NCBI GenBank assembly: GCA_002780175.1
Contig: PEVT01000008.1
Span: forward strand, 1 to 37,081
DNA: 37,081 bases
Reading direction: 5' to 3'
Source: Candidatus Moranbacteria bacterium CG06_land_8_20_14_3_00_40_12
GTDB taxonomy: Bacteria; Patescibacteriota; Minisyncoccia; Moranbacterales; UBA2206
In this document: positions 9,173 to 35,451 of the stretch, in pieces
How the letters are laid out: each line of letters starts with the position of its first letter
How positions within the stretch are numbered: the stretch's first letter is position 1
The notes under the pieces: generated by a model
Told to the model about the DNA's origin: nothing
The model's input: only the letters and a program-made list of their open reading frames with translations
Database searches by the model: none
Made by a program: the position numbers and the translations under genes

Positions 9173-9818
9173 ATGCCTAAAAAAAGACATCTAACAAAAA
9201 AAAATTATAAATGCTGATGATTGGGGATTATCGCCTCTTTTTAATAAAGGAATTTTCGAATTGGCCAAGAGAGGCGTTGTTACCAGCACAACCGTAATGA
9301 TTAGAAAAAAATTTATAGAATCCGAAAAGCTTCTTTCTCTTAAAAATATTTCCATTGGACTTCATTTAGATTTATCGGAAAAATCTTCTTTAAAAGAAGT
9401 TGAAAATCAGTTAAAATTATTTGAAAAAAAATTCAAAAAAACTCCCTCCCACTTAGACGGCCACCGGCATTGCCATTTGTCTAAAAATAATCTTCTGCTG
9501 GTTTTAAAAATAGCTAAAAAATATAACTTGCCCATAAGATCTCGATTTCTGAAAGATAGAAAAAAAATAAAGAAATTTTGTTTAAAAACTCCTGGAAGCT
9601 TTATTAGCTGGCACCCCGATCGCCTCTCTATTTTAAAAGAGCGTCTAGCTAAAATAAAAACGGCTGCCGCCGAATTAGTCTGCCATCCGGGTTATTACGA
9701 TAAAAAATCAACCTATCCTTACAATCAAAAAAGGAAAAAAGAATTAAACTTTCTAAAAAGTCGCCAATTTAATATTTTACTAAAAAAATTTAAACCTATT
9801 AATTATAATGAACTTTGA
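9173..9818 (+). pseudogene. ChbG/YdjC-like carbohydrate deacetylase, frame interrupted near the N-terminus at an A9 tract
   Basis: ATG at 9173 reads MPKKRHLTKK then shifts at 9196-9204; the +1 frame reads IINADDWGLSPLFNKGIFELAKRGVVTSTTVMI...HLDGHRHCHLS...CHPGYYD. The ORF track only sees 9261-9818. Confidence 0.8.
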
Positions 9819-11134
9819 AGTGCCTCAATTTGAAGCTAAAAAGCCAGATCTAGAATCCTTGGATGATGTTTGGTATGAAAGACTTAAAAATTTGGCTGCT
9901 TTCATGGATTTTGAATATCTGTCAGGCAATAAAGAAGTTAGAGAATTGGAAAAACAAAAATTTTTAAGCAACAAGGTTAAAAACCCAAGCCTTGATTATC
10001 CGGAGATTGAAAAAATGAACTTTGCGCAAAAAGAAAGCGGCCTGCTGGATTTAAAAAAAGATATCCTGCAAAATGAAAGAAATGAGACCTTAAAGCAAGT
10101 TTACCGCTGGAAAATAAACGAAAAATTAGCTGAGCTTCGAATGTTGACTGCAACAAAAAATGGAAACGATCATCGAGTTTCTCATTATTCGAGATTTATC
10201 TATGGAAGTCCGGAAAAAGAAATTTATAATTATACTCTTTCTCAAATTAAAAAAATTGTAGATGAAAAAATTCTAAGTTCTGATTTCGAAATAAAAGCGG
10301 CGGTGGTAAAAATTAAAGAAACTTTACTACAAAATCTATCTTCAGAAACTTCTATTAGCGCCGAGGATTTTAAATCCAAATCAACCATACTAGCAGGGGA
10401 AGAAACTATGTATGGAGCAGAAGAAATAAAAACGGCTTTTGAAGCTGCCCTAGAAAAATACTGCCTTTTCGGCTGGAAAATAGTCATAGAAAAAGAAAAA
10501 ACTGGAGGCATAAGTACGAGCCAAGAAAAAAAAAGAAGTTTCCATTCCAGAAGAAAGAAGACTAAAAAAACTCGATCTTTAATCATTAATTGAACATGAA
10601 ATTGGAACTCACGCATTACAAAGAGAGAATGGGGAGAGGTCAAAATTAAAATTATTAGGCTTGGGATTAGATAGATCCTTAAGAGGCGAGGAGGGAGTTG
10701 CTACCTATCGAGAACAAAGAATTTTGGGGATGGAAGATTTTGCCGGACTAGACGGACATCTGGCAATTTCTTTAGCTTCTGGAATAAATGGTAAAAAAAG
10801 AAATTTTAGAGAGGTTTTTGAAATATTAAAAGCTTTCTATTTCATCTCTTCCAAGAAAGAAAAGTCTGAAGCTTTAAAATCGGCGGTTAATTCGGCCTGG
10901 GATCAATGCGTGAGAACTTTTCGAGGAACAACCTGCCAAACCCCCGGGGCTTGTTTAACTCGGGACATTGTCTATCGGGAAGGAAATATTGGCATCTGGA
11001 ATGTGGCAAAAAATAATCCGGCAGAAATTAAAAGGTTTTCGATTGGTAAATATGATCCCGCTAATCCAAGACATATTTGGATTCTTGAGCAATTGGGCAT
11101 AACAGATTCTGATTTGGATTCGCTTGAGAGATAA
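9808..11134 (+). pseudogene. DUF1704/MATCAP-like metallopeptidase, disrupted by a frameshift and a nonsense codon before the HEIGTH motif
   Basis: ORF 9808-10593 carries the N-terminal family features (NPSLDYPEIE, RFIYGSPEKEIYNYT). The frame of ORF 10661-11134, extended upstream, reads EVSIPEERRLKKLDL*SLIEHEIGTHALQRENG...GEEGVATYREQ. Confidence 0.8.
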
Positions 11135-15181: not shown

Positions 15182-16348
15182 TTAGTTTTTAATCGGCATA
15201 ATAATATAAATGTAATCTTCCCCGAGAGTTTCTTTTTCCATATTTACCTCTTTGAGCGCCGCCGGAGAAGAACCGCTGTTGATTAACAGGGCTATTCGCG
15301 GAGTATTTAAGGTGTTCAGGCCTTCCAGGAGATATTTGGAGTTAAAAATAATTTCTTGGGATGGTCCTGTTATTTCCAGCTTAAGCTCCGAGGAGTTTTC
15401 GCCTATTTCCACGCTTCTGGCTTCAAAAACAACTTTTTTTTCATCACTATTTATTTTTATGCCGACTTCTCCCGATCTTCCGGAGGTAAAAACACTGGCC
15501 ATTTTAACAACGCCTTGGATTAATTCTTTTTCTCCCTGAATTGTTGTTTTGAATTCTTTAGGAATAATATTTTTATATTCCGGATATTTTCCATTAATCA
15601 GGCGTGAAACAATTTTAATGCCTTCCAGGTCGAAAAAAATCTGGCTGTTTTCTATGGTTATCTTAATTGCGCCCTCTTCGGCTTCATTTTGAATAATTCG
15701 GGATAATTCCAGAAGCGTGGCGGAAGGAATAATAATATTATTTTTTGATTTAATAAACATTTCATAGGCTTCCTTGTTGATATTTTCATTGTTTAATTTT
15801 AACTGACTTTCAGCTAAACGGAAGCTGTCAGTAGCCGCTAAAAAAAATCCCTGCGGATTTAAAATCATATTAACACCAGTAAGCTCCTGCCGGGTTTCGT
15901 TGTAACCAACGCAGGTAATTATTTTAGTAATGGCTTTTTTAAAAATAAAACTGGGAATGTTAATTAAAAAATCAGAGGTTTTTTGCGGAATTAACGGGAA
16001 ATCATCGGCCGGCAAGCCTTTAATGGTGGCCTTAAAATACCCGCTTTTTATTTTTAAACTTTGATCAACCGCCTCCAGGGTGATATTATTCTCTCCTAAA
16101 GAAGGCAGATTAGCGATAAAATTTCCGATTAATTTGGCGGGGATGGTTATTTTTCCTTCTTTTTCTATTTTAGCGCTGATTTTAATTATTACTCCAATTT
16201 CCAAATTAGTCGCCGAGAGTTTAAATATTCCCTTTTCCGTTTCAAAGAGAATGTTATTTAAAATCGGCAAGGTGTTTTGTTTAGAAACCACTCTTTCTAA
16301 ATTAAAAATAGCCTTCTTGAATTTTTCCCGGGTGCAAATAAGTTTCAT
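15182..16348 (-). CDS. dnaN: DNA polymerase III beta subunit
   Basis: MKLICTREKFKKAIFNLERVVSKQNTLPILNNILFETEKG and overall length and architecture; downstream of dnaA. Confidence 0.96.
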   Translation of the reverse strand: MKLICTREKFKKAIFNLERVVSKQNTLPILNNILFETEKGIFKLSATNLEIGVIIKISAKIEKEGKITIPAKLIGNFIANLPSLGENNITLEAVDQSLKIKSGYFKATIKGLPADDFPLIPQKTSDFLINIPSFIFKKAITKIITCVGYNETRQELTGVNMILNPQGFFLAATDSFRLAESQLKLNNENINKEAYEMFIKSKNNIIIPSATLLELSRIIQNEAEEGAIKITIENSQIFFDLEGIKIVSRLINGKYPEYKNIIPKEFKTTIQGEKELIQGVVKMASVFTSGRSGEVGIKINSDEKKVVFEARSVEIGENSSELKLEITGPSQEIIFNSKYLLEGLNTLNTPRIALLINSGSSPAALKEVNMEKETLGEDYIYIIMPIKN

Positions 16349-16413
16349 AAATATTAATTACTATTTTATTTAAATATATTTTTTTAATTATTATTTATTA
16401 GTTTTTTGTAAAT

Positions 16414-16608
16414 AGTGGAAAAAAGCAACTAGGGTTTCATTTAAAACAAAAAATAAATAAATAAAGGGGGAATAATATATTTTTTAAAGAGGATTTTTTT
16501 AATAATATATTTTTTAGGAAAATAATTAACCGTTTAAATTTTAAAATGAGAGGGTTTTTGTCAGGGTTATTAAGTTTTTTTAAGAGATTTTTCCACAAAT
16601 TATCAACC
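16414..16608. promoter_or_regulatory. AT-rich dnaA-dnaN intergenic region with repeats and DnaA-box-like sites (possible oriC sub-region)
   Basis: Direct repeats AATAATATATTTTTTA at 16471-16486 and 16501-16516; TTTTCCACA at 16589-16597; AGTGGAAAA at 16414-16422. Confidence 0.5.
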
Positions 16609-17979
16609 AAGAGAATATAATTGTTTCTTTAAAATATCCATTTCTTTTATGAGTTTTTCGTTAAAAGTCAATTCTTTTTTTATTTTTTCAAAAGCGTAAA
16701 TAGCCGTAGTGTGATCTTTCCCTCCCAGACGCTCTCCGATTCCCGGATAAGAATAATTAAGCTCGCTTCTCATTAAATACATAACGATTTGGCGCGGCCG
16801 GACAATCTCTCTCTTGCGAATTTTTATCAATAAATCATCCGGCTTGATTTCATAAAAATCCGAAACAATCTTAATGATGTGCTTGTAAGTAATACTCCCC
16901 CTTTTACTGCTGGAAACTATTTCTGAAAGAAGCGCTGAAACGAATTTCAGGGTAATTTTTTCTTGAGTAAGCTGGGCGGAAGCGGAAACGCGATTTAGGG
17001 CTCCTTCTAACTCGCGGATATTGCTGGTAATATTGGAAGCGATAAATTCTAACGCCTCGTCTTCTATAATTAATCCTTCATTTAAAGCTTTTTTTCTTAA
17101 AATAGCCATGCGGGTTTCAAAATCAGCTTGGCCGATATCAGCAATCATCCCGCCTTCAAAACGGGAACGCAACCTTTCTTCCAAAGTGGGAATGGCCTTG
17201 GGCGGGCAATCACTGCTTAAAACAATCTGTTTGTTCAGCTGATAAAGAAAATTAAAGATATGGAAAAATTCTTCCTGGGTTTTCTCTTTTCCGGAAAGAA
17301 ACTGAATATCGTCAATGATTAGCAGATCAATTTTTTGATAAAGATCCTTAAACTCGCTCACCCTTTGATTTTTTATGGATTCAATTAAATCGCCGGTGAA
17401 TCTTTCCGAGGAAGTGTATCTTATTTTACAGTCCGGGTCTTTTTTAAACACTTCATTGCCGATAGATTGCAAGAGATGGGTTTTTCCCAGACCCACTCCT
17501 CCATAAATAAAAAGCGGGTTATAAATTTTTCCCAAGTTTTGGGAAACCACGTAGCAAGCGGCCCTGGCCAATTCGTTGCTTCCTCCGACGATAAAATTTT
17601 CAAAAGTGTATTTAGGATTAAGATTGTTTTTTTGATTGATGTCGAAATCTTTTAAAACGGTTTTTTGGGGAGACGGGACTTTGGGAGGAGGTAAAATAGC
17701 GTCTAATTTGTTTTCTTTAAAGCTGTTTTGATAGTTAGTAACAATAGAACAAGAAACTTCTTTGACATCGCTCTGAATATTGCGGAGCGCTCTAAGAATA
17801 TAGAGCTTATATTTGTTTTCCAGCCATTCTTTGGCAAAACCATTGGGAACTCCAATAAAAACCTTCCCGTCTTTATTGGATAAGATGGAAGTATTTTTAA
17901 ACCAAGTGATAAAATTAGCCTTAGAAATAGAAAGCTCTATTTCTCCCAGAACCGCTTGCCAAAGTTCTTCATTAGTCAT
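16603..17979 (-). CDS. dnaA: chromosomal replication initiator DnaA
   Basis: [45 protein letters not shown], C-terminal [38 protein letters not shown]. Confidence 0.98.
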   Translation of the reverse strand: [458 protein letters not shown]

Positions 17980-18015
17980 ATGCGTTTTGTTTGAACCCCC
18001 TTTTACTGTTTAAGA

Positions 18016-18021
18016 AGTATA
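18016..18021 (-). promoter_or_regulatory. putative dnaA -10 element (TATACT, extended TGCTATACT)
   Basis: Minus-strand TATGCTATACT 37 bp upstream of the dnaA start. Confidence 0.45.
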
Positions 18022-18052
18022 GCATAAAAAATAATTCACAGTCTAGAATGAT

Positions 18053-18073
18053 TGGGGATAAAAATGTGGATAA
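18053..18073 (-). promoter_or_regulatory. two tandem DnaA boxes upstream of dnaA
   Basis: Minus strand TTATCCACA (18065-18073, consensus) and TTATCCCCA (18053-18061), same orientation, 3 bp apart. Confidence 0.75.
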
Positions 18074-18130
18074 ACTGTTTATTAAAAACAAAAAAACCAT
18101 TCTAAGTGTCTTTAAAAATCAAATTTTTAA

Positions 18131-18159
18131 TTGACTTAGTTTATGATAATTGATAAGAT
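18131..18159 (+). promoter_or_regulatory. sigma70-type promoter for rpmH-rnpA-yidC-jag
   Basis: TTGACT (18131-18136), 17-bp spacer, TAAGAT (18154-18159). Confidence 0.6.
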
Positions 18160-18204
18160 TTTAAATAGTTAGTTTAATTGGTAATTTTAAGGAAAACAAA
18201 TCCC

Positions 18205-18342
18205 ATGAGTCAAACCTATAAACCCAAAAAGTTGAAAAGAAAAAGAAAACATGGTTTTAAAAAAAGAAGTCAAACTAAAGACGGTCGCGAAGTAATGAAG
18301 CGCCGAAGAAGAAAGGGTCGGAAAAAAATCACCACGGTATAA
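18205..18342 (+). CDS. rpmH: 50S ribosomal protein L34
   Basis: Translated by hand: [45 protein letters not shown]; immediately upstream of rnpA. Too short for the supplied ORF track. Confidence 0.95.
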
Positions 18343-18364
18343 ATCTGTTTAAAAATGCTTTTCA

Positions 18365-18778
18365 ATGCTCCCTTTTAACAACCGTTTATTTAAAAAAAGA
18401 GATTTCGCCAAAGTTCAGAAGATGGGCCGTTTTTTTAATTCCGACCAGATAAGCTTAAAAGTTTTAAAAAATGGCTTAGATGAAACCAGAATCGGTATTA
18501 TTGTCGGTAAAAAATTTTCCGTGAAAGCAGTAGAGCGAAACAATATGAAAAGAAAATTACGGGAAATTACCCGCCAGGAAATTAAGCAGATAAAAAAAGG
18601 CTGGGACGTGGTTATTATGGTTAAAGAAAGCCAAAATAAGGCAAGAACCAGCGAAACGTTAAAAGTAGCTATAAAAAAAATATTAAAAGAAGCCCAAATA
18701 ATTAATTACCTGTCTTCCGGCCCGCTCCGCCGAATCGAGGCGAGCAGGCAGGGCAAAAAAAAGAATGGTTATTTTTGA
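18365..18778 (+). CDS. rnpA: ribonuclease P protein component
   Basis: NRLFKKRDFAKVQKMGRFF...GIIVGKKFSVKAVERNNMKRKLREI; synteny. Confidence 0.93.
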   Translation: MLPFNNRLFKKRDFAKVQKMGRFFNSDQISLKVLKNGLDETRIGIIVGKKFSVKAVERNNMKRKLREITRQEIKQIKKGWDVVIMVKESQNKARTSETLKVAIKKILKEAQIINYLSSGPLRRIEASRQGKKKNGYF

Positions 18779-19544
18779 CCAATTTGTCTATATTCCCATC
18801 TATAATTTATTGGTTTTTGTGTATAATCTGCTTCCTTTTAAGGATTTCGGGGTAGCCATTATTGTAGTTACTTTGATAATCAAGTTTTTACTGATTCCTT
18901 TAAGCCGCAAGCAAATCGAATCCCAGAAGAAAATGACCGAATTACAACCTAAAATCAAAGAACTTCAGAAAAAATACAAAGATGACAAAGAAAAACAAAG
19001 TCGGGCGTTGATGGATCTTTATAAAACCCACAAATCCAATCCCTTTTCCGGCTGTTTGCCCATGATTGTCCAGCTGGTCTTTTTAATCGCTATTTATCGA
19101 GTTCTTTTTAATATTTCCCAGGCTAATTTAATGATAAATGGAAACATTCTTTATGATTTTATTAAAAATCCCGATCAAATAAACAAAATGTTTTTAGGTA
19201 TCATAGATCTTTCTACGGCGGTAAACCTGGGACACATCTCTTTTTCCGAAGCGCCAAAGATTATTTTAGTGCTTTTAGCGGCTCTTTCACAGTTTTTTCA
19301 GAGTAAAATGCTTATGGCTAAGCAAAAAACAGCTTCTAATTTTCCCAAGGATGATAAAATGGACTTTTCTCAAATAATGTCCAAACAAATGCTTTTTTTA
19401 GGACCGTTGCTGACTCTTTTTATCGGAGTGAAATTTCCCTCCGGCTTGGCTCTTTATTGGCTTGTTTCAACAATTTTTATGATTATTCAACAACATTTTT
19501 TGAAAAAAGAAAACGAAGCAATCCTTTTGCAAAAAGTTAAATAA
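18765..19544 (+). CDS. yidC: YidC/Oxa1 membrane insertase
   Basis: ATLIIKFLLIPLSRKQIESQKKM-type motif, NPFSGCLPMIVQLVFLIAIYRVLF, FPSGLALYWLVSTIFMIIQQ. Confidence 0.95.
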   Translation: MVIFDQFVYIPIYNLLVFVYNLLPFKDFGVAIIVVTLIIKFLLIPLSRKQIESQKKMTELQPKIKELQKKYKDDKEKQSRALMDLYKTHKSNPFSGCLPMIVQLVFLIAIYRVLFNISQANLMINGNILYDFIKNPDQINKMFLGIIDLSTAVNLGHISFSEAPKIILVLLAALSQFFQSKMLMAKQKTASNFPKDDKMDFSQIMSKQMLFLGPLLTLFIGVKFPSGLALYWLVSTIFMIIQQHFLKKENEAILLQKVK

Positions 19545-25904: not shown

Positions 25905-27062
25905 CTAAAGACTTATTTGATAAAGCTTTCCGTCAGTCCGGTTGGTAAAGAAAAGCAGGCTTTCATCAGGGCTTAAAAAGAGATTGGTCGCGTCGGCTTC
26001 AACGGTGATTTTTTTTAAATCAATCAAGCGGTTTTTTTCTCCGGTTAAAACATTGACTTTCCAGAAAGTGTCAGTCGTGTTGAATTGGCGGGAAAGATAA
26101 TCATTGGGTAAAATCGCGTTTTCCGGAATAGAGGCGGGCAGGGCGTAATAAACCGTCCGATTGTCCTTCGACCAGGCGCATTTGACGGTTAAGGTGGGAA
26201 TTTCCAGATTTTTGTATTCTCCTCCTTTGTCGTTCATAACAGCCAGCTGCATTTTTCCCCCGGTTCTTTCCACGGAATGGCTGGCGAGGATTAATCTGCC
26301 GTCCGGACTCCACAGAAAATCGGCGCCGAATTTTCCCTGAAAAATAGTTTTATTTTCTCCGGAAATAAGTGAAGCGGATTTAAGAGTGGATTCGTTGTAA
26401 GCGTCCGGATTGTTCCAAAAAGCAATCAGCCCGCTTTGCGGAATGCCGGCGGAAAAAACGGGAGTGAAATTCAAATCGGCGATTTTTTTCCAGTTGTTTC
26501 CGTCCGGATCGGAAAGATTAAGCGTGCGTTCTTTTTTAGCGGGGTCGAAATATTGGTACAGGATTTTATTGCTGTTTTGCCAAAAAATATCATCTATATT
26601 ATCGCCTAGAGCTGTTTCTTTCTGGGTAGAAAAATTAAAAAAAACAAAATTCCAGGTAGCCGGAGTCGGCTGTATCCTAAAAATAGCTTGATTTTTAGCG
26701 GGCGACCAAAGGATATCCGTCAGGCCCGGCAATTCTTTTTTAAGAATAAGATTTCTGACCTTGCCATCGAAAGAAATTTCATAAAATCCCTGATCTTTGG
26801 GTGAATAATATTTTAGAGCCGAACCGTCTTCGTTTAAAACAGGGGCGAAAACCGGCTCATCGGTTAAAAGAATCATTTTTTCCGAAGAAGAAAGCTTTTT
26901 TTCCGGAGATGATTTTGAATCTGAAGATGACGCGGGTGAATTTTTCGAAGCCGGCTTGAAAATAAGAATATAAATTCCTCCCAAAAATAAAAGCAGAGCC
27001 AGGCCCAGAGAAGAAAAAATAAATATTTTTTTCAGAGTAGACATATAAATTAGTTGTCGCAA
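25905..27062 (-). CDS. membrane-anchored beta-propeller-like (TolB/WD40-type) protein
   Basis: N-terminal TM; repeated LWSPDGRLILASHS, CAWSKDNRTVYYALP, LFLSPDESLLFFTNR propeller-like motifs. Confidence 0.65.
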   Translation of the reverse strand: MRQLIYMSTLKKIFIFSSLGLALLLFLGGIYILIFKPASKNSPASSSDSKSSPEKKLSSSEKMILLTDEPVFAPVLNEDGSALKYYSPKDQGFYEISFDGKVRNLILKKELPGLTDILWSPAKNQAIFRIQPTPATWNFVFFNFSTQKETALGDNIDDIFWQNSNKILYQYFDPAKKERTLNLSDPDGNNWKKIADLNFTPVFSAGIPQSGLIAFWNNPDAYNESTLKSASLISGENKTIFQGKFGADFLWSPDGRLILASHSVERTGGKMQLAVMNDKGGEYKNLEIPTLTVKCAWSKDNRTVYYALPASIPENAILPNDYLSRQFNTTDTFWKVNVLTGEKNRLIDLKKITVEADATNLFLSPDESLLFFTNRTDGKLYQISL

Positions 27063-27925
27063 CCGCAGCCGGGCACGCTGACATGGACATGATCGCCTTC
27101 ATCTTCAATGTAGCCGGCGCCGCAACTGGAAGCGGCGCTCATAATGGTTGCGTTGGAAGCGGAACTGCCTTGGTTGGAAAAATCCACCGCGCAGGATTTT
27201 CCAGGACTGCTCGTTCCTCCATAATGGCAGGAGCCCTTTTTATGAAAACAGCAATTAGTTTGTTTGGCGGGAACACCTGGGGATCCGGGAGTGCATTGAA
27301 CCCAGGTTGGATTTTTTTGATAACAATTAACTCCGCCATTGTTGTCAGAAATAGAGGATATTTGAATCGCGTCTCCCAGTTTTTTATGCATGCAATCCAA
27401 AAGAGCGTTGAGTTTATCGGAAGCATCTGCGCATTGTCCGGGAACCTGGCTTTTCATTAATTGGCAGGCGCTCTTTACAGCCGGCGGCAATTCCGCTGGA
27501 GGTCCGGGAATAGTGGGTGTTGTGGGAACCGCGGCGGCCATTTTAGCTTTTACCAGTTCCGGATTTATAGTATAGAGAATTAAATAAGCCAGGAGGGCTA
27601 AAATTAAGCCTATCAGGGCGTCGGTGATAAATCCCTTGGCTTTTTCCATGCTGGCGTTGTTGCCGCCGGAAGCGGCATACATATAGCCGCCGATGACAAT
27701 CATAATCAAAGCGCAAATGCCGACGGTCCAGATGCCGAATTTATAAAGATTGGAAACAAAAGTCGCGAAATCGTTGGTTGTTCCATAACCGGGGATAGGC
27801 TCCATCGGTTCGTAATCCAAATTGGGACCGGTTGTTTCGGCGGCGGAAACAATCAGGAGAGGAAAAATAAAAACAGACAGTAAAACCAGAAAGACGAGAA
27901 ATTTAACCTTAAAATTTTTAGTCAT
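27050..27925 (-). CDS. TrbC/VirB2-like T4SS pilin fused to an M15/LAS-like peptidase domain
   Basis: Signal peptide, two TMs around GGYMYAASGGNNASMEKAKGFITDALIGLILALLAYLILYTINPEL; C-terminal CHYGGTSSPGKSCAVDF and EGDHVHVSV resemble the HxxGxAxD/HxH metal ligands. Confidence 0.75.
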   Translation of the reverse strand: MTKNFKVKFLVFLVLLSVFIFPLLIVSAAETTGPNLDYEPMEPIPGYGTTNDFATFVSNLYKFGIWTVGICALIMIVIGGYMYAASGGNNASMEKAKGFITDALIGLILALLAYLILYTINPELVKAKMAAAVPTTPTIPGPPAELPPAVKSACQLMKSQVPGQCADASDKLNALLDCMHKKLGDAIQISSISDNNGGVNCYQKNPTWVQCTPGSPGVPAKQTNCCFHKKGSCHYGGTSSPGKSCAVDFSNQGSSASNATIMSAASSCGAGYIEDEGDHVHVSVPGCGCDN

Positions 27926-30863
27926 TTTTTTGAACTTGAGGAAATAAAGCGAAAAGGATCCAGATGGCGGCTAAAAGAACGAAAGCGGTAAGAACCAATC
28001 GGAAAAGAAAAGCGAAATAAGCCGGAACGCTGGAAATAAAACTGGCCAATATTCTGCCTTGGCCATTTTGGGCCGCTTCGGATTCATCAATGCTGTCAGC
28101 CAGGGTAAAATCAATTATTTGAGAAAGCGGTTGCTCGTAAAATTCGCCCAGAATTACGCCCCAATATTCGTTCAAAGCTTTTTTGGTGTTATTGTCTTGG
28201 GTGTAAATCCCCTCGGCTTTAAGCGAAAAGGAAGTTTCCATATTTTCAAAAGCCTTAAAAGACAAAGAACGATCCGTAGTTTCTAATTGGATATCATTCC
28301 AATACCAGGTTATGGGCAGATCCTCTTTAGCGGGAAAAGGAACCGAAGCGAAAGGAGCCAAGGCCAATTTAATGGTGGAATCGTCCAGCGCTAAAAATTC
28401 CGTCTGGCTGTAATCGGGCCATTCTTTGCCGTCTAAATCTATGTAATGGCCGAGAGTTTTAGGCTTGCTGGTGGATTCGTCCGCGGAAATAATTTTGAAA
28501 TCCGGTTCGGAAACCAGAAAAGTTTTGTTCAGGCTTATTTTAACGCCGGTTTTTTGATTGGTGGCGACGAGGCTTAAACTTAAAGTGGAGCCCTCAGGCG
28601 CCAGAACCGGAAAAAAAATCAAATTGCCTGGTTCGGTAAAATCAGAATCATATTTATAAGAAAGCGCTTGGCCGTTGAGCGTCCAAAGAAAGTCGTAATC
28701 TTCTCCGGAAGTAATGTTCGCTTTCACCGCCACGATTTCATCCGGAGCCACCGGGCAAATAGCGGCGTCCACCAGCTGTCCCCGGGAGCCGGCGTAAATT
28801 TGGCAAATTTCTTCATCTCCTTTGGCCAGAGTCAAGGAATCGTCAACCAGAGTATGGAAAACGGAAAGGTTGTTATTAAAAGAAGACAACGGAATGATGG
28901 CCTCCGCGTAACCCTTGCGGGTTCCCTCGCCGGCGCCGGAGGTGACTTTTTCCGACACGTTAAGTTTGACTTTAAGATATTTGGGCGCGTCGGAAAAATT
29001 AGCTTTAAATTTAAGATGGGGAATTCCCGCTCCCGTGGTTTGTTCCACTCCGATAAGCTGGCTTTTCAACAAAGGATCGCCCCATTCTTCTTCGGCGTCG
29101 GCCGAATCTCCCATATAAACGGTCCAAGCATAATGCAAAGATTCTTTTTTGGTGGAATTTTCAATCGTGGAAACAACGCTGATCCAATCGGCGTTATCGC
29201 CTTCATTGCTGGTGTCGTTGACCGGATTTTCCGGAGAATAAGAAAGGCTCACCTCTATTTTTTCGTTCTTGCCCCCGCTTTCGGAAGGCTTGAGCATATT
29301 TTCTAGCAAACACTTGTTGAAATAATCTTTGTTCATATTAAAAATAGTGTCCAGCTCTAACTCACTGGAATCAACAATCTCAATGGCGGAGTTGGTAATA
29401 GAGCAAAGAGCTGTTCCATCTTTCTTAAAATCATCAGTTGAGCCACAGCAAGATTGGTTTGTACCTAAGGCTACCTGATATTTTACATTGCTGTCCACTT
29501 GAGCTTGAGTAAAAAAATTTTCAGAAACCAAAGAGTGTGTGTCAATTTCATTGCAAACTGCCGCATCTGGCTTAAAATAATCTTTTGTTTCAGTCGTAAT
29601 TTTTGTGGTTGCGTTCCCTCCCGTCCCTCCCGTCCCTCCCGTCCCTCCTTCTCCCACATCTCCTCCAGTCCCTCCAGTCCCTCCAGTCCCTCCAGTTGCC
29701 GTTCCTGTTGCAGTAGCTATTCTTCGGGAAGCTAAGCTAATAGTTTCTGTTTTTATAAAATATTGATAGTCCCCTATAGTGTAACTGGAGGAAGGAGCTT
29801 GCTGGGCTTCAACCGGTTTTTGTTTAATCAAAGTTCGAGTAAATTCACAGCCATCCGGACAATCCGGCCAAGTAGTGGGATCGAGCTGGGTGCCATAATT
29901 TTTTCCCTCTCCCGGTTCATCAAAATGTTTTTCCAGAACTTTGCAAGTGTTATTGGGAATGGCCCACATTATTTTATAACTGGAATCTTCAAACAGAGTG
30001 GAATCGGCCGCGATGCCTTCCACGGCCACTCCCAGCCGATCTCCCGGTTGGTAGGTCCAGGAAAAATCCTTGGCGCCCAAGCCGGTGACATTCGCTTCGT
30101 CCGGATGGCCGGTTTCGGCGGTATCCGGGTCATCCGGATTGGTGCGCCAAAAATATTCCTCTCCCTTGCTGAAAGCGTTATCGCCGGTTGTATAGCCGGG
30201 CGCGTTGGGGAAAAGATGGAAGCAATCCTGGAATTGATAATCTTTGCCTAATTTAACATCGTAAAAAAAACAAAAATTATTTTTTTTCTTTTGGTCGTCG
30301 CCCCCATAGACGGATTTGTAGGCGCTTTCTCCGTCGGACTTGCCGTAATCGGCTTGCGCGTAATCAAAACCGCTGTTGGCGTAAGTCCGCATAGCCTTGA
30401 TTTTGAAATCTTCCACATCCACCTCGCCGTCTTTATTAAGGTCGCAGCGCGCTTTATTTTCCGCGTTCAAATTTTTTTCCTGGCAAATTTCCGGTTGCAA
30501 ATACCAAGTATAGTAAAGCGTTTCAGGCTGGTTGGCGAAATTGAGCGGCGTGGCCGTGGCGGTCGCTTTTTCTCCCGGCTTGGGATCGGTCGGGGTAAAA
30601 GTGACAGTGACTTGCGGATGAGGTTTTTTTAAACTGGCCACATTCAAATATTGGGCGTTTTCCGTGATCATCGCGTCGTCAATTCCGTATTTTTTAAAAA
30701 TACACATCACCGCTTTAGCGGGATCAATAAGGCCGAGTGCTTTGCATTTGATGTCTTCAAACGGACCCAGGCCGAATGCGGCTAAAGCGCTAGGGATGTT
30801 GAGCAGAGTAAAAAGCGCGATCAGGCAGAGGATTAAACGATTTTGAGGGGAAAATATACGCAT
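27918..30863 (-). CDS. large envelope protein with signal peptide and C-terminal TM; EF-hand/dockerin-like segment and Gly-Thr repeats; T4SS-associated
   Basis: 981 aa; CDLNKDGEVDVEDFKI calcium-loop-like segment; GGTGGTGGTGG tracts; FRLVLTAFVLLAAIWILFALFPQ C-terminal TM; stop overlaps the pilin gene start. Confidence 0.7.
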   Translation of the reverse strand: MRIFSPQNRLILCLIALFTLLNIPSALAAFGLGPFEDIKCKALGLIDPAKAVMCIFKKYGIDDAMITENAQYLNVASLKKPHPQVTVTFTPTDPKPGEKATATATPLNFANQPETLYYTWYLQPEICQEKNLNAENKARCDLNKDGEVDVEDFKIKAMRTYANSGFDYAQADYGKSDGESAYKSVYGGDDQKKKNNFCFFYDVKLGKDYQFQDCFHLFPNAPGYTTGDNAFSKGEEYFWRTNPDDPDTAETGHPDEANVTGLGAKDFSWTYQPGDRLGVAVEGIAADSTLFEDSSYKIMWAIPNNTCKVLEKHFDEPGEGKNYGTQLDPTTWPDCPDGCEFTRTLIKQKPVEAQQAPSSSYTIGDYQYFIKTETISLASRRIATATGTATGGTGGTGGTGGDVGEGGTGGTGGTGGNATTKITTETKDYFKPDAAVCNEIDTHSLVSENFFTQAQVDSNVKYQVALGTNQSCCGSTDDFKKDGTALCSITNSAIEIVDSSELELDTIFNMNKDYFNKCLLENMLKPSESGGKNEKIEVSLSYSPENPVNDTSNEGDNADWISVVSTIENSTKKESLHYAWTVYMGDSADAEEEWGDPLLKSQLIGVEQTTGAGIPHLKFKANFSDAPKYLKVKLNVSEKVTSGAGEGTRKGYAEAIIPLSSFNNNLSVFHTLVDDSLTLAKGDEEICQIYAGSRGQLVDAAICPVAPDEIVAVKANITSGEDYDFLWTLNGQALSYKYDSDFTEPGNLIFFPVLAPEGSTLSLSLVATNQKTGVKISLNKTFLVSEPDFKIISADESTSKPKTLGHYIDLDGKEWPDYSQTEFLALDDSTIKLALAPFASVPFPAKEDLPITWYWNDIQLETTDRSLSFKAFENMETSFSLKAEGIYTQDNNTKKALNEYWGVILGEFYEQPLSQIIDFTLADSIDESEAAQNGQGRILASFISSVPAYFAFLFRLVLTAFVLLAAIWILFALFPQVQKND
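29615..29696. repeat. 9-bp in-frame minisatellite, two variant arrays
   Basis: CCTCCCGTC array and CCTCCAGTC array separated by CTTCTCCCACATCTCCTCC; encodes (GTG)n-type Gly-Thr-Gly units. Confidence 0.9.
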
Positions 30864-30866
30864 AAA

Positions 30867-31526
30867 TTATGGAGTAAGAAAAATTATGCAAGCGTCCAAA
30901 AGAATCAAAAAAATAAGGCCAGGCAGATAGGAAAAAAAGAAAGAGCGGCTTTTGTAGGCGGCCAGTCCGCCGAAAAGCGAAAGGATCACCATAGGCAAAG
31001 TTTCAAAAAAATAAGAGCTGTAAACCAGAAGCGGAAAAAGAAAGACCGTGGACTGGATTAGAATGGACCAGACGCCCAGTCTTTCCCGCAAAACGGAAAG
31101 CAGGAACCCTTTGAAAAAAATTTCTTGCGCCAAAAAGAGCAGATTGACCAAAACCAATTCGTAGAGCAAAAAATAACCGAAGCTCGCTCTGGCGAAAACG
31201 GGAGAGGCGTAAACTTTGTCAAATTCAGTATAGCGGATAAGGAGGAAAAAAAGAACTGCTAAAAAAACAAATAGCGCTCCTCCCCAGAGTAATCCGGCCT
31301 TCTTGTCTCCCCAGCCGATGCCGAAATCGCGGATATTTTTTTGCAGTACCAGTTTGACGTATAACCAAGGAACAATCAGGAGAAAAAAAATGTTTTTGGT
31401 TAAATTTTGCGAATAGTCGTCCGCCGGAAAATAATAAACCATAAAAAAGCAAAAAATCGCCACCAGAAAACTTAAAAATGTTTCTTTCCACTGCTCCAGT
31501 GCTTGCTTTTCGATATTTAAGTACAT
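30867..31526 (-). CDS. CPBP (CAAX-like) family intramembrane protease
   Basis: Polytopic; AQEIFFKGFLLSVLRERLG resembles the EExxFRG motif. Confidence 0.65.
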   Translation of the reverse strand: MYLNIEKQALEQWKETFLSFLVAIFCFFMVYYFPADDYSQNLTKNIFFLLIVPWLYVKLVLQKNIRDFGIGWGDKKAGLLWGGALFVFLAVLFFLLIRYTEFDKVYASPVFARASFGYFLLYELVLVNLLFLAQEIFFKGFLLSVLRERLGVWSILIQSTVFLFPLLVYSSYFFETLPMVILSLFGGLAAYKSRSFFFSYLPGLIFLILLDACIIFLTP

Positions 31527-31688: not shown

Positions 31689-32153
31689 TTAAGCCGGCGT
31701 TGCGGCCATTTTTTCTTCCTTATCAGCCAGCATCCTTTCCTGAAGCGTCAGATAAAAAACCAAAGCTACCGTCAAAGTTTCAATGGGGAAAAAATTCAAT
31801 CCGAAAAACATTTCCACGGCTGATCCGGCAACCAAGGTCCCGTATCTTTTCGCGAGAGCTTTCGCCATTCTTTGAGCGCTTTTCCTTTTTCCTCCCGATC
31901 CGGTAATAAACATAATCATTCCGATAATAAAGGAAACCCCGAAAGTGACCAATGTGCCGATGACCGGCAGCGAGCCCAAGCCCACAAAATCCGAGATGTC
32001 TTTAAACAGGGCGAAACATAAAGCGATGCCGTAAAGCCAATCCATAAAAGGGTCGAAATATTTCATCAAGGAAATGACAGCGAAAGTATCCTTGATTTTT
32101 TGCGCGTTTGTTCGAGGCGCGCGGGATTGAGTTGTATCGGAAATAGCGGGCAT
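31689..32153 (-). CDS. conserved membrane protein in the T4SS-like operon
   Basis: 154-aa ORF with about three hydrophobic segments; same strand as flanking T4SS genes. Confidence 0.6.
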   Translation of the reverse strand: MPAISDTTQSRAPRTNAQKIKDTFAVISLMKYFDPFMDWLYGIALCFALFKDISDFVGLGSLPVIGTLVTFGVSFIIGMIMFITGSGGKRKSAQRMAKALAKRYGTLVAGSAVEMFFGLNFFPIETLTVALVFYLTLQERMLADKEEKMAATPA

Positions 32154-32287: not shown

Positions 32288-34123
32288 TTAAGCTTCTTCT
32301 TCTTCAGCCAGTTCTTTTTTAGCTTGTTCGATCTCCGCGATTTGCGAAGGATCGGTGGTGATAATCTGGTCTTCGCTGTAAGAAGCCACTACTTTGATGG
32401 CGACATGCTTGGTGCCGGCGAAAAAAATTCCCTCCCCGACATTGCTTTCCAACAGCAGAAATTTTTCCTGGTCGGTGAGGTAAAAGGTTTCCGTGATGAC
32501 ATCGATGGCGGCCGGCGACTGTTTAAGCAGGATCTGAATGGAAGAGTTGGTGACAATCGGCTTGCCGAAGCGGCTCGACAAAAAATCGTTCACATCCTGG
32601 GTAATCGTCGTGAGTCCGGTGTAATACTTGCGGCATCTTTTGGCGATGCCGAAAAGAAAAGAAGCGGCATCGTCGTATTTCATCATCACCCAGGCTTCGT
32701 CAACCAGGACGATTCTTTTGCGGATATTGGTGCGCATTTCATTCCAGATGAATTGCAAAACGACATACATGGCGACGGGGCGCATTTCCTCTTCCATGTC
32801 GCGAATATTAAAAACCACCATCGGGTTATTAATATCCAGGTTGGTGACATTATTGAGAAATCCGGAAAAAATGCCTTCGGTGTATTTTTCCAGCCGGATC
32901 GCCAAATCTTCCCCGCCTTCCATATTGCGCAGCACCTGGTAAAGATCGGACATGGTGGGAAAATCTTCTTTTTTCAAAGCGTTTAAATCAGCTTGGGCGG
33001 TGATGTCTTTAATATCGTAAGTTTCCCGGATGGAACGGTCTAAAATAGAATCTTCTTCCGGCGTGATATTGCCCAGCATCAAATGCAAAAGTCCGATAAG
33101 TCCGGCGATATTATTGCGCATAACATCTACCGGGTCTTCGTCTTCGCCGACTTTGGGCAGGTCAAAAGGGTTCAGATGATTTTTGGAATTTAAGGAAATT
33201 TTAAAGAAGGTTCCGCCGACCGTGTCGCACAGATGCTTGTATTCGTTTTCCGGATCGATAATAATAACTTCGGTTCCCACCATCAAGGAGCGCAAAACTT
33301 CCAGTTTAACCAGATAACTTTTGCCGGCGCCGGATTTGGCGAAAACGACCATATTGCCGTTTTCCATGTTGAAACGATCAAAAATTATCAAACTGTTGTT
33401 ATGGCGATTGATGCCGTAAAGAATCCCTTCTTCACTGGAAAGATTGGAAGAAACAAAAGGAAAAGTGGTGGACAAAGGAGAAGAATCCATGCTGGTGCCG
33501 ACATTCAGCTCGTCATTGGCCAAAGGCAAGGAGGAATTAAAGCCCTGCTCGGTTTTAAAAATGGCCGGTTTGGTGTAAACCAACTGGGCTTCCAGAATGG
33601 CCATAATGGCTTTCACCTGCTTGTCCAACTCTTTTTCCTCTTGCGCGTAAATGGTTATGTATAAGCCGAAGCGGAAAAATTTTTCCGTCCCCTGCTGGAG
33701 CTTGTCGCGCAATTCATCGATGTCGCGCATCGCGGTTTCCAAAACCGGATCGCGCACCATGCCGCGCGCTTCTTCAATGTGAATTTGCGACTGGACCTGG
33801 GTGGCGGTTTTGCGCAGGTTTTTGAGGATGGTGTTGGTGTCGATGGGATGGATGAACATGGAAATATCCATCGGCATATCAATATTGATGATCGGCGAAA
33901 ACCAATTGCTGTGCAGGTAGCGGGGATAGGTAATGACAAAAATAGTTTGCGCCAAAGTTTCGCCCACGCGGATATAGCGGGAAGTGATTTTAATGGCGGA
34001 AGGCGCGATCAGATCCTGCAGCTTGGAGAGGCCTTCCTGGTAATATCTCTCGCTTAAAAGCACCTCGTCGGTCGGCAACGGTTCGGATTTAGGCTCTTTA
34101 TTTTTTTTCAAAAAATCCAGCAT
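32288..34123 (-). CDS. VirB4/TraC-type conjugation ATPase
   Basis: MVVFAKSGAGKSYLVKLEVLRSL (Walker A), VIIIDPENEY, RIVLVDEAWVMM (Walker B), TTITQDVNDFL. Start at MLDFLKK (34123) preferred over 34177. Confidence 0.93.
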   Translation of the reverse strand: MLDFLKKNKEPKSEPLPTDEVLLSERYYQEGLSKLQDLIAPSAIKITSRYIRVGETLAQTIFVITYPRYLHSNWFSPIINIDMPMDISMFIHPIDTNTILKNLRKTATQVQSQIHIEEARGMVRDPVLETAMRDIDELRDKLQQGTEKFFRFGLYITIYAQEEKELDKQVKAIMAILEAQLVYTKPAIFKTEQGFNSSLPLANDELNVGTSMDSSPLSTTFPFVSSNLSSEEGILYGINRHNNSLIIFDRFNMENGNMVVFAKSGAGKSYLVKLEVLRSLMVGTEVIIIDPENEYKHLCDTVGGTFFKISLNSKNHLNPFDLPKVGEDEDPVDVMRNNIAGLIGLLHLMLGNITPEEDSILDRSIRETYDIKDITAQADLNALKKEDFPTMSDLYQVLRNMEGGEDLAIRLEKYTEGIFSGFLNNVTNLDINNPMVVFNIRDMEEEMRPVAMYVVLQFIWNEMRTNIRKRIVLVDEAWVMMKYDDAASFLFGIAKRCRKYYTGLTTITQDVNDFLSSRFGKPIVTNSSIQILLKQSPAAIDVITETFYLTDQEKFLLLESNVGEGIFFAGTKHVAIKVVASYSEDQIITTDPSQIAEIEQAKKELAEEEEA

Positions 34124-34171
34124 AGGTAGTTTTTTTAGATTAGTCAAAATTATTTGTAATTTCTTTGAGAG

Positions 34172-34260
34172 TGTCATTCCGGGCTTGTCGAGCCTGCCTG
34201 CCGGTAGGCAGGGAATCTAATAAATTAGATCCTCACGTCGCTTCGCTCCTCAGGATGACA
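34172..34260. repeat. palindromic intergenic element, TGTCATTCCGGG...AGGATGACA
   Basis: Central ATCTAATAAATTAGAT; left hairpin with GCCTGCCTGCCGGTAGGCAGG. Confidence 0.85.
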
Positions 34261-34272
34261 TTGTAAACAATG

Positions 34273-34959
34273 TCACTTTAAATCCAAATTGCGCGTGTCT
34301 TCCAGTTCCGTTAAATTGAAAACATTGGAATTGTAGGAATTATACAGCAATTCAATGAGCTCTTTGGTTTTAAGCGGAACCATTTTCAAGCCGATGCCGG
34401 AAAGACTGGCGATAATATGGTTCATGCGCTGAAAAAGCTGATTGCGGCAGGTTTCAAAAAGCTCCCGTTTATCCATAATGCTTTTTCTGGGATTAAGCAA
34501 GGTGCTAAAACTGTCGAATATTCCCTTTTCCCGGTTTTCAATGGAAGAAAAGGGAATGATGATGTAAAAATTTTTGTCCATAATATTGGAAACCGAAACC
34601 AGATGCTGGATAAAATTTTTATATTCGGAAATCTGGAAGCGCAGCAGCTCGCTGGGCTGGTCTTTTTCCTTGCGTTCGATGAAATCCAGATATTTTTCAA
34701 TGTTGATCTTGCGAGAATTAATCAGGATTTGCAGGGGGAAATCCAGGGAGTTGAGGAAATTTTTATACTGGTTGATAATGGCTTCCTGCTCCTGGGTTGA
34801 TTTTAAATCGTAATTAATGGCGGAAACGCTTAAAACTCCGCGCAAAGTTCCGTTTTTCAGCACGATGGCGTCATCCTTGACTTCCGCCACGTCCATAAAT
34901 TGCTGGCTGGTGGATTTAGAGCTCGTTTTGGTTATTTTTTGGGAGTTTAATATTTCCAT
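34273..34959 (-). CDS. TraC-like N-terminal-domain protein, T4SS-associated
   Basis: 228 aa; FMDVAEVKDDAIVLKNGTLRGVLSVSAINYDLKS...QEQEAIINQYKNFLNSLDFPLQILINSRKINIEKYL; between PrgI and VirB4. Confidence 0.75.
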   Translation of the reverse strand: MEILNSQKITKTSSKSTSQQFMDVAEVKDDAIVLKNGTLRGVLSVSAINYDLKSTQEQEAIINQYKNFLNSLDFPLQILINSRKINIEKYLDFIERKEKDQPSELLRFQISEYKNFIQHLVSVSNIMDKNFYIIIPFSSIENREKGIFDSFSTLLNPRKSIMDKRELFETCRNQLFQRMNHIIASLSGIGLKMVPLKTKELIELLYNSYNSNVFNLTELEDTRNLDLK

Positions 34960-35366
34960 GTGGTTGTGGAACTATCCAATAAGCTGGAAATTTCCTGAAT
35001 TTTATCTTGATTAAGGGCTTTTTTCCGGATGTTTTCGCCCGTTTCCGGTTTTTTAATCTTCATTTTTTTGAGAGCCATTTTGAGCTGGTTGTCTCTTTTC
35101 CAGACGTAAATTTTGGGGCGCACTCCGAAAAAAACCATCGAAATGAGGAAGCTTAAAAAAGACCGGCCGTTGGGGCGGTAAAAAGCGAAAGCGCCGAAAA
35201 AAGCGACGGTCAGAAGGCCGGCAATCACAAAAGAAGTAAAATCCAGCAGATTCCAGAGAACCAACAGAATACCGCCGGCGCAAAACAGCCAGCCTAATTG
35301 TTTAGCCGTGAGCGGGCCGACGATTTTATCTTCGGTGTCGATAAATTGGGGAACATTGTGCATCAT
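34947..35366 (-). CDS. PrgI family protein
   Basis: MMHNVPQFIDTEDKIVGPLTAKQLGWLFCAGGILL...FYRPNGRSFLSFLISMVFFGVRPKIYVWKR. The ORF track start at 35438 extends into a palindromic element. Confidence 0.88.
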   Translation of the reverse strand: MMHNVPQFIDTEDKIVGPLTAKQLGWLFCAGGILLVLWNLLDFTSFVIAGLLTVAFFGAFAFYRPNGRSFLSFLISMVFFGVRPKIYVWKRDNQLKMALKKMKIKKPETGENIRKKALNQDKIQEISSLLDSSTTTWKY

Positions 35367-35374
35367 ATAGTCGT

Positions 35375-35451
35375 TGTCATTCCCGTGAAAACGGGAATCC
35401 AGAAAACTTATTAATTTATTTACTGGATCCCGCATCAAGTGCGGGATGACA
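35375..35451. repeat. palindromic intergenic element, TGTCATTCCCGTGAAAACGGGAATCC...GGATCCCGCATCAAGTGCGGGATGACA
   Basis: Two strong hairpins with TGTCAT/ATGACA termini. Confidence 0.88.

Follow-up and report, generated by a model that had tools for sequence, protein, structure and literature searches.

A type IV secretion pilin fused to a predicted LAS/Hedgehog-type domain in a Moranbacteria VirB4 operon, a member of a widespread class of pilin fusions with wall-hydrolase-type tails

The window, i.e., the whole stretch of 37,081 nucleotides analysed here, comes from a very small, probably parasite-like bacterium and carries a type IV secretion system (T4SS) operon (Table 1). A TrsD-type gene ahead of virB4 is also described in Patescibacteria by a 2025 survey (PMC12102498). 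In relatives, the genes follow each other in the order VirB4, 154-aa protein, CPBP protein, 981-aa protein, muramidase-pilin, LAS-pilin and propeller protein, and the interval between the 981-aa and propeller genes is often occupied by two pilin fusions, one with a muramidase and one with a LAS domain. The 981-aa protein, which lies between the CPBP protein and the pilin fusions across the order, contains GGTGG repeats; it has no informative Pfam match, and its matches in the PDB are of low complexity or look spurious. A class A PBP is also encoded in the window, indicating that the cell builds peptidoglycan. A row of dnaN-like, dnaA, rnpA-like and yidC genes (15182-19544), some 15 kb away from this operon, probably marks the replication origin region; a T4SS close to dnaA is reported for some Patescibacteria in the same survey (PMC12102498). 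Two adjacent short ORFs on the plus strand (9808-10593 and 10661-11134), the second of which matches the end of PF08014 (MATCAP) with an E-value of 2.3e-5, just below the cut-off, may represent the two pieces of a single disrupted gene.

Table 1. Features of the T4SS operon and of the pilin fusion protein (window coordinates; residue numbers refer to the fusion protein)
Feature	Coordinates	Strand	Basis
PrgI (VirB3-like)	34947..35438	-	PF12666, E 1.2e-8
TrsD/VirB4-N-like protein, by position only	34273..34959	-	before virB4; no Pfam match
VirB4 ATPase	32288..34177	-	NF045971 (CD1110 family), E 2.4e-113
154-aa multi-TM operon protein	31689..32153	-	syntenic in relatives
CPBP/Rce1-like membrane protein	30867..31526	-	PF02517, E 1.1e-4; syntenic
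981-aa operon protein, N-terminal signal-like segment, one C-terminal TM	27918..30863	-	syntenic in relatives
Pilin-LAS fusion protein, 291 aa	27050..27925	-	open for all 291 codons
Signal-peptide-like hydrophobic N-terminus, residues 1-29	27839..27925	-	hydropathy; SAAE at 27-30; cleavage inferred
T4SS_pilin domain (PF18895), residues 54-119, with a GGNN...AKG loop between two TM helices	27569..27766	-	Pfam
Pro/Ala-rich linker, residues 128-148	27482..27544	-	sequence; low pLDDT at start of first model
C-terminal Cys-rich LAS/Hedgehog-type domain, residues 149-291	27053..27481	-	PDB profile, AF2 model, Foldseek
H234, predicted zinc ligand (Shh H141)	27224..27226	-	invariant in 27 relatives; Shh alignment
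D248, predicted zinc ligand (Shh D148)	27182..27184	-	invariant in 27 relatives
H281, predicted zinc ligand (Shh H183)	27083..27085	-	Shh alignment; at least 90% conserved
WD40/PD40-like propeller protein, last in the conserved gene order	25905..27062	-	PF07676, E 0.004, below cut-off; syntenic

The ORF of the fusion protein had been placed correctly, in position and strand, by an earlier note on this DNA made from the letters alone; its start codon lies within the 8 bases by which it overlaps the preceding gene of the operon. Hydropathy reveals three hydrophobic segments (residues 2-33, 59-88 and 96-125), the last two framing the short polar GGNNASMEKAKG loop, in agreement with the signal peptide, whose cleavage is predicted, and the two transmembrane helices around a loop that the note had described. 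Its proposal that the N-terminal half is a TrbC/VirB2-type pilin is borne out by the Pfam T4SS_pilin model, which matches residues 54-119 above the curated cut-off (E-value of 1.6e-6, 28.5 bits for a cut-off of 26.6; E-value of 1.8e-7 in the search of the own genome). Both VirB4 and PrgI are encoded in the same gene row, which is syntenic in relatives. The window protein is thus of T4SS pilin type by sequence, predicted topology and operon, its polymerization into a pilus being putative.

The C-terminal half contains both CHYGGTSSPGKSCAVDF and GYIEDEGDHVHVSVPGCGC, the motifs previously likened to the HxxGxAxD and HxH zinc ligands of M15/LAS metallopeptidases. We aligned this half over 17 sequences at first and over 27 later. 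The columns of H234, D248, H279 and H281 are invariant in 19 relatives; in the wider alignment of 27 relatives, H234, D248 and H279 (two residues before H281) are invariant, and E276 and H281 are conserved in at least 90%. The conservation of these His and Asp columns across relatives argues that the motifs are not due to chance. The resemblance to HxxGxAxD holds for the conserved His and Asp but not for their spacing, which a short stretch inserted between GG and S-x-A-x-D extends to 14 residues instead of 7.

A profile of the C-terminal half retrieved 23 PDB chains at E-values up to 10, all of them Hedgehog N-domains, with a best E-value of 0.0038, a weak but specific signal. In this profile alignment, residues H141, D148 and H183 of the Shh zinc site correspond to H234, D248 and H281, and Shh E177 corresponds to E276, the likely general base (Shh numbering as in PMC6027127). 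A first AF2 model of the domain (19 sequences, pLDDT 77) gave no significant or relevant Foldseek match near the top. With the second model (27 sequences, pLDDT 81, pTM 0.79), the search of 350,542 PDB chains placed ShhN at rank 1 (probability 0.96, TMq 0.51, E-value of 0.17) and an M15 endolysin at rank 20, while the named top matches among the viral proteins of BFVD include a cell wall hydrolase, several M15A peptidases and murein endopeptidase K (probability 0.99). Structure prediction followed by Foldseek, a check proposed in the earlier note, therefore leads to Shh in the PDB and mostly to murein/M15 peptidases among named viral proteins. Of the HMM searches that had also been proposed, the one with the T4SS_pilin model gave a match, but no M15/LAS model of Pfam did, and neither HH_signal nor any hydrolase model of Pfam or NCBIfam, M15, VanY and M23 included, matched the window protein. 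Each of the lines of evidence on the fold is weak by E-value, yet they are mutually consistent, and we take the domain to be a member of the fold, by profile and predicted structure, that lies outside the named Pfam peptidase families. Neither an unrelated fold nor a lack of conservation of the His/Asp residues, the two outcomes named beforehand as telling against a LAS-type C-terminal half, was observed. This assignment is therefore supported with an amendment, the nearest solved relative being the Hedgehog signalling domain rather than a standard M15 peptidase. Taken as a whole, the C-terminal half looks like a LAS/M15-Hedgehog fold in alignment and model. Hedgehog belongs to the LAS/M15 zinc-peptidase fold, and Shh has a zinc site, yet is often regarded as a pseudo-peptidase, so that the fold alone is no proof of activity. 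We infer from motifs and model that the window domain may cut peptidoglycan.

The window protein, used as a query, has matches in 139 of 142 related genomes. From the fetched loci we obtained 154 non-redundant pilin ORFs, of which 124 extend beyond the pilin by 90 residues or more. Group HMMs and Pfam detect a wall-hydrolase-type tail in 107 of these 124 long ORFs, a proportion that is not a population frequency, since the sample was drawn with the window protein and favours long ORFs, and the HMMs were built from sample members. These tails comprise 39 SLT or lysozyme-like and 64 LAS-like domains, with VanY-like, M23, C39 and DUF2272/CHAP domains found once each; E-values in pilin-fused relatives are as good as 4.6e-29 for SLT, 1.1e-10 for M23, 3.1e-17 for DUF2272/CHAP and 2.3e-13 for C39. 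The LAS-like tails fall into four groups, a (the window type, 22 ORFs), b (16), c (15) and d (11), groups b to d being assigned by their H...D...H motifs. Groups b and d reach Hedgehog in the PDB (E-values of 0.01 and 0.06) and group d aligns with the window tail type in hhalign; for group c, no LAS relative was found in the PDB. One relative from another tail group matches HH_signal at 0.0077.

A search for the same fusion in other genomes, suggested in the earlier note, thus recovered the window-type LAS tail on 22 sampled pilin ORFs. The pilin-LAS fusion, regarded there as a potentially unusual one-protein solution, is no isolated oddity; it belongs to a widespread class. Two other explanations were discarded. 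An assembly-fusion artefact is contradicted by the finding of this architecture in 22 distinct sequences, many of which share their gene neighbours, and the idea of a pilin with merely some generic Cys-rich tail by the predominance of hydrolase-type tails. Among the loci examined in 99 genomes of the order, at least one hydrolase-tailed pilin occurs in 83 genomes, and a muramidase-pilin and a peptidase-pilin occur together in 18, counts to which the same bias of the sample applies. SLT matches are found at 67 places in 118 genomes of the order, 21 of them (coordinates compared by hand) within ORFs that also hold a pilin. A profile search of contigs with the narrower C-terminal alignment gave 11 loci, mostly from Moranbacteria where informatively named, which would place the window's organism in this group as well.

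The tails are exchanged on a stable pilin base. In the pilin-domain tree, the window pilin groups with others of its family in a clade of 13 members (support 0.95), which carry five tail types (SLT in four, LYS2 in three, LAS_c in three, LAS_b in two and LAS_a in one). In the own genome, the window protein is the only long pilin fusion found. The genome has no SLT match, so that a partner muramidase is either absent or replaced by another enzyme; it encodes three M23 proteins elsewhere and has no PF01427 match. About eight small T4SS pilins, none with a hydrolase tail, are arrayed on a separate contig (C31:3828-6978), away from the VirB4 operon.

In a phylum-wide sample, pilin-SLT fusions matching most of the profile are present outside the class (loci L170 and L173-L177), and other pilins carry GH18 (E-value of 8.3e-22) or M15-like tails, once adjoining a pilin-SLT fusion (L198). 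L193:1300-2877 encodes a pilin with a GH18 tail, and L181:538-2310 a pilin-SLT fusion that bears an additional GDSL-like domain. The window tail type is rarer, being found in 8 of 381 genomes, the own genome included. In five loci from other classes (L062 and L064 to L067), this tail type is carried by non-pilin membrane anchors with long charged N-termini, directly after virB4 in L064.

We propose from these architectures that the VirB1 function may have been fused to pilins. The explanation that we hold to be fairly probable is that the window protein is a pilin-anchored, outward-facing zinc peptidase of LAS/Hedgehog type that would open the wall locally for the T4SS, in the role of VirB1. 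Judging from hydropathy, Sec export would leave the short pilin loop in the cytoplasm and the C-terminus outside; tethered to the secretion channel by its pilin half, the enzyme could cut peptide cross-links there and so create a local opening for the channel or the pilus. In many relatives, the work of VirB1 would be divided between a muramidase fusion and a peptidase fusion, both on pilins and side by side, reminiscent of the muramidase and endopeptidase that monoderm VirB1 proteins combine in a single chain. We regard the cell's own wall as the most likely target, to be opened locally, given that the core operon encodes the fusions and that peptidoglycan is made by the cell; a host wall may also be attacked.

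The alternative that survives best, although we consider it rather unlikely, concerns only the role of the pilin half and shares the function proposed above. The two-helix N-terminal domain would be a pilin-related membrane anchor and not a working pilin, the protein being a membrane-bound VirB1-like enzyme, as the occurrence of the same C-terminal domain on different anchors in other classes, once directly downstream of virB4, would suggest; against this, the T4SS_pilin cut-off is passed, some of the pilin-fusion relatives also match TrbC/VirB2, and the same pilin type recurs with one tail after another.

In another reading, unlikely in our opinion, the fusion would form part of an extracellular pilus or of the pilus tip, and its enzyme would attack the wall of the host bacterium colonized by the cell. 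The presence of a pilin domain agrees with such a role, and the T4SS, widespread in Patescibacteria, whose cultured members are epibionts, is essential in the sole species tested (PMC12102498 and PMC11665869). The diversity and swapping of tails, with GH18 and GDSL-like domains among them, would also suit varied host walls, and one may imagine an armed wall-borer whose interchangeable hydrolase-pilins, in the pilus or its tip, cut the host wall with a tail repertoire tracking its chemistry, an idea to which we give the same low credence. However, the genes for the fusions are part of the core VirB4 operon, whereas the small tailless pilins form the separate array on C31, and a folded tail of 140 residues on each subunit may hinder the packing of a pilus. 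Finally, it is quite improbable that the C-terminal domain is a non-catalytic zinc-binding module serving, through contacts with peptidoglycan or a partner protein, as a wall anchor of the T4SS, as its nearest solved relative, Hedgehog, and the inactive VirB1 homologues proposed as adhesins in Gram-positive systems (PMC12857230) could suggest, since the ligands and the position of E276 are conserved and bona fide hydrolase families occupy the same place on other pilins.

A pilin-anchored enzyme that opens the wall would have its closest functional counterparts in the VirB1-type hydrolases of monoderms, such as PrgK of pCF10, TraG of pIP501 and Orf14 of Tn916 (PMC12857230). These are also membrane-held, extracytoplasmic wall hydrolases encoded with VirB4 and have muramidase and peptidase activities, which are predicted in the present case. 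They differ in having ordinary transmembrane anchors and both activities joined in one chain, whereas in the present fusions every predicted activity has a T4SS pilin of its own, and their CHAP or LytM domains contrast with the Hedgehog/LAS-type domain of the window protein. Pfam found no SLT/muramidase domain of the VirB1 family in the latter, which may perform VirB1-like work but is not a member of that family.

The pilin half resembles the PF18895/VirB2-like pilins of Patescibacteria in its domain, operons and tandem copies. The 2025 survey reports VirB2-like pilins together with VirB4 in 1,948 assemblies, and finds VirB1 missing from most VirB2-bearing genomes, pilus biogenesis seemingly having no need of it; it allows that other glycosidases might play this role and refers to a Saccharibacterium in which genes for peptidase and lysozyme, located downstream of virB4, are essential, and its parts considered here do not mention hydrolase tails on pilins (PMC12102498). 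Wall hydrolases on pilins would fill this gap and revise the inference that the VirB1 function is dispensable. We found no literature on pilin-hydrolase fusions in open-licence full texts, and public domain-architecture listings may already include them; the components are known ones, and the arrangement appears to be new.

The C-terminal domain shares with the Hedgehog N-domain and the bacterial Hh-DD-peptidase (PMC6027127), as well as with LAS enzymes (M15, MepA), an H...D...HxH zinc site with an E177-like base, the S-x-HY-x-G and HxHxS motifs and, by AF2 and Foldseek, the predicted fold. It differs from them by the 14-residue spacing between His and Asp (7 in theirs), by several invariant cysteines and by the pilin at the N-terminus of the protein, which lacks the autoprocessing domain of the animal type. 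With these fusions, the Hedgehog/LAS family would gain a bacterial branch tethered to the membrane, with a bearing on the origin of the animal Hedgehog signalling domain.
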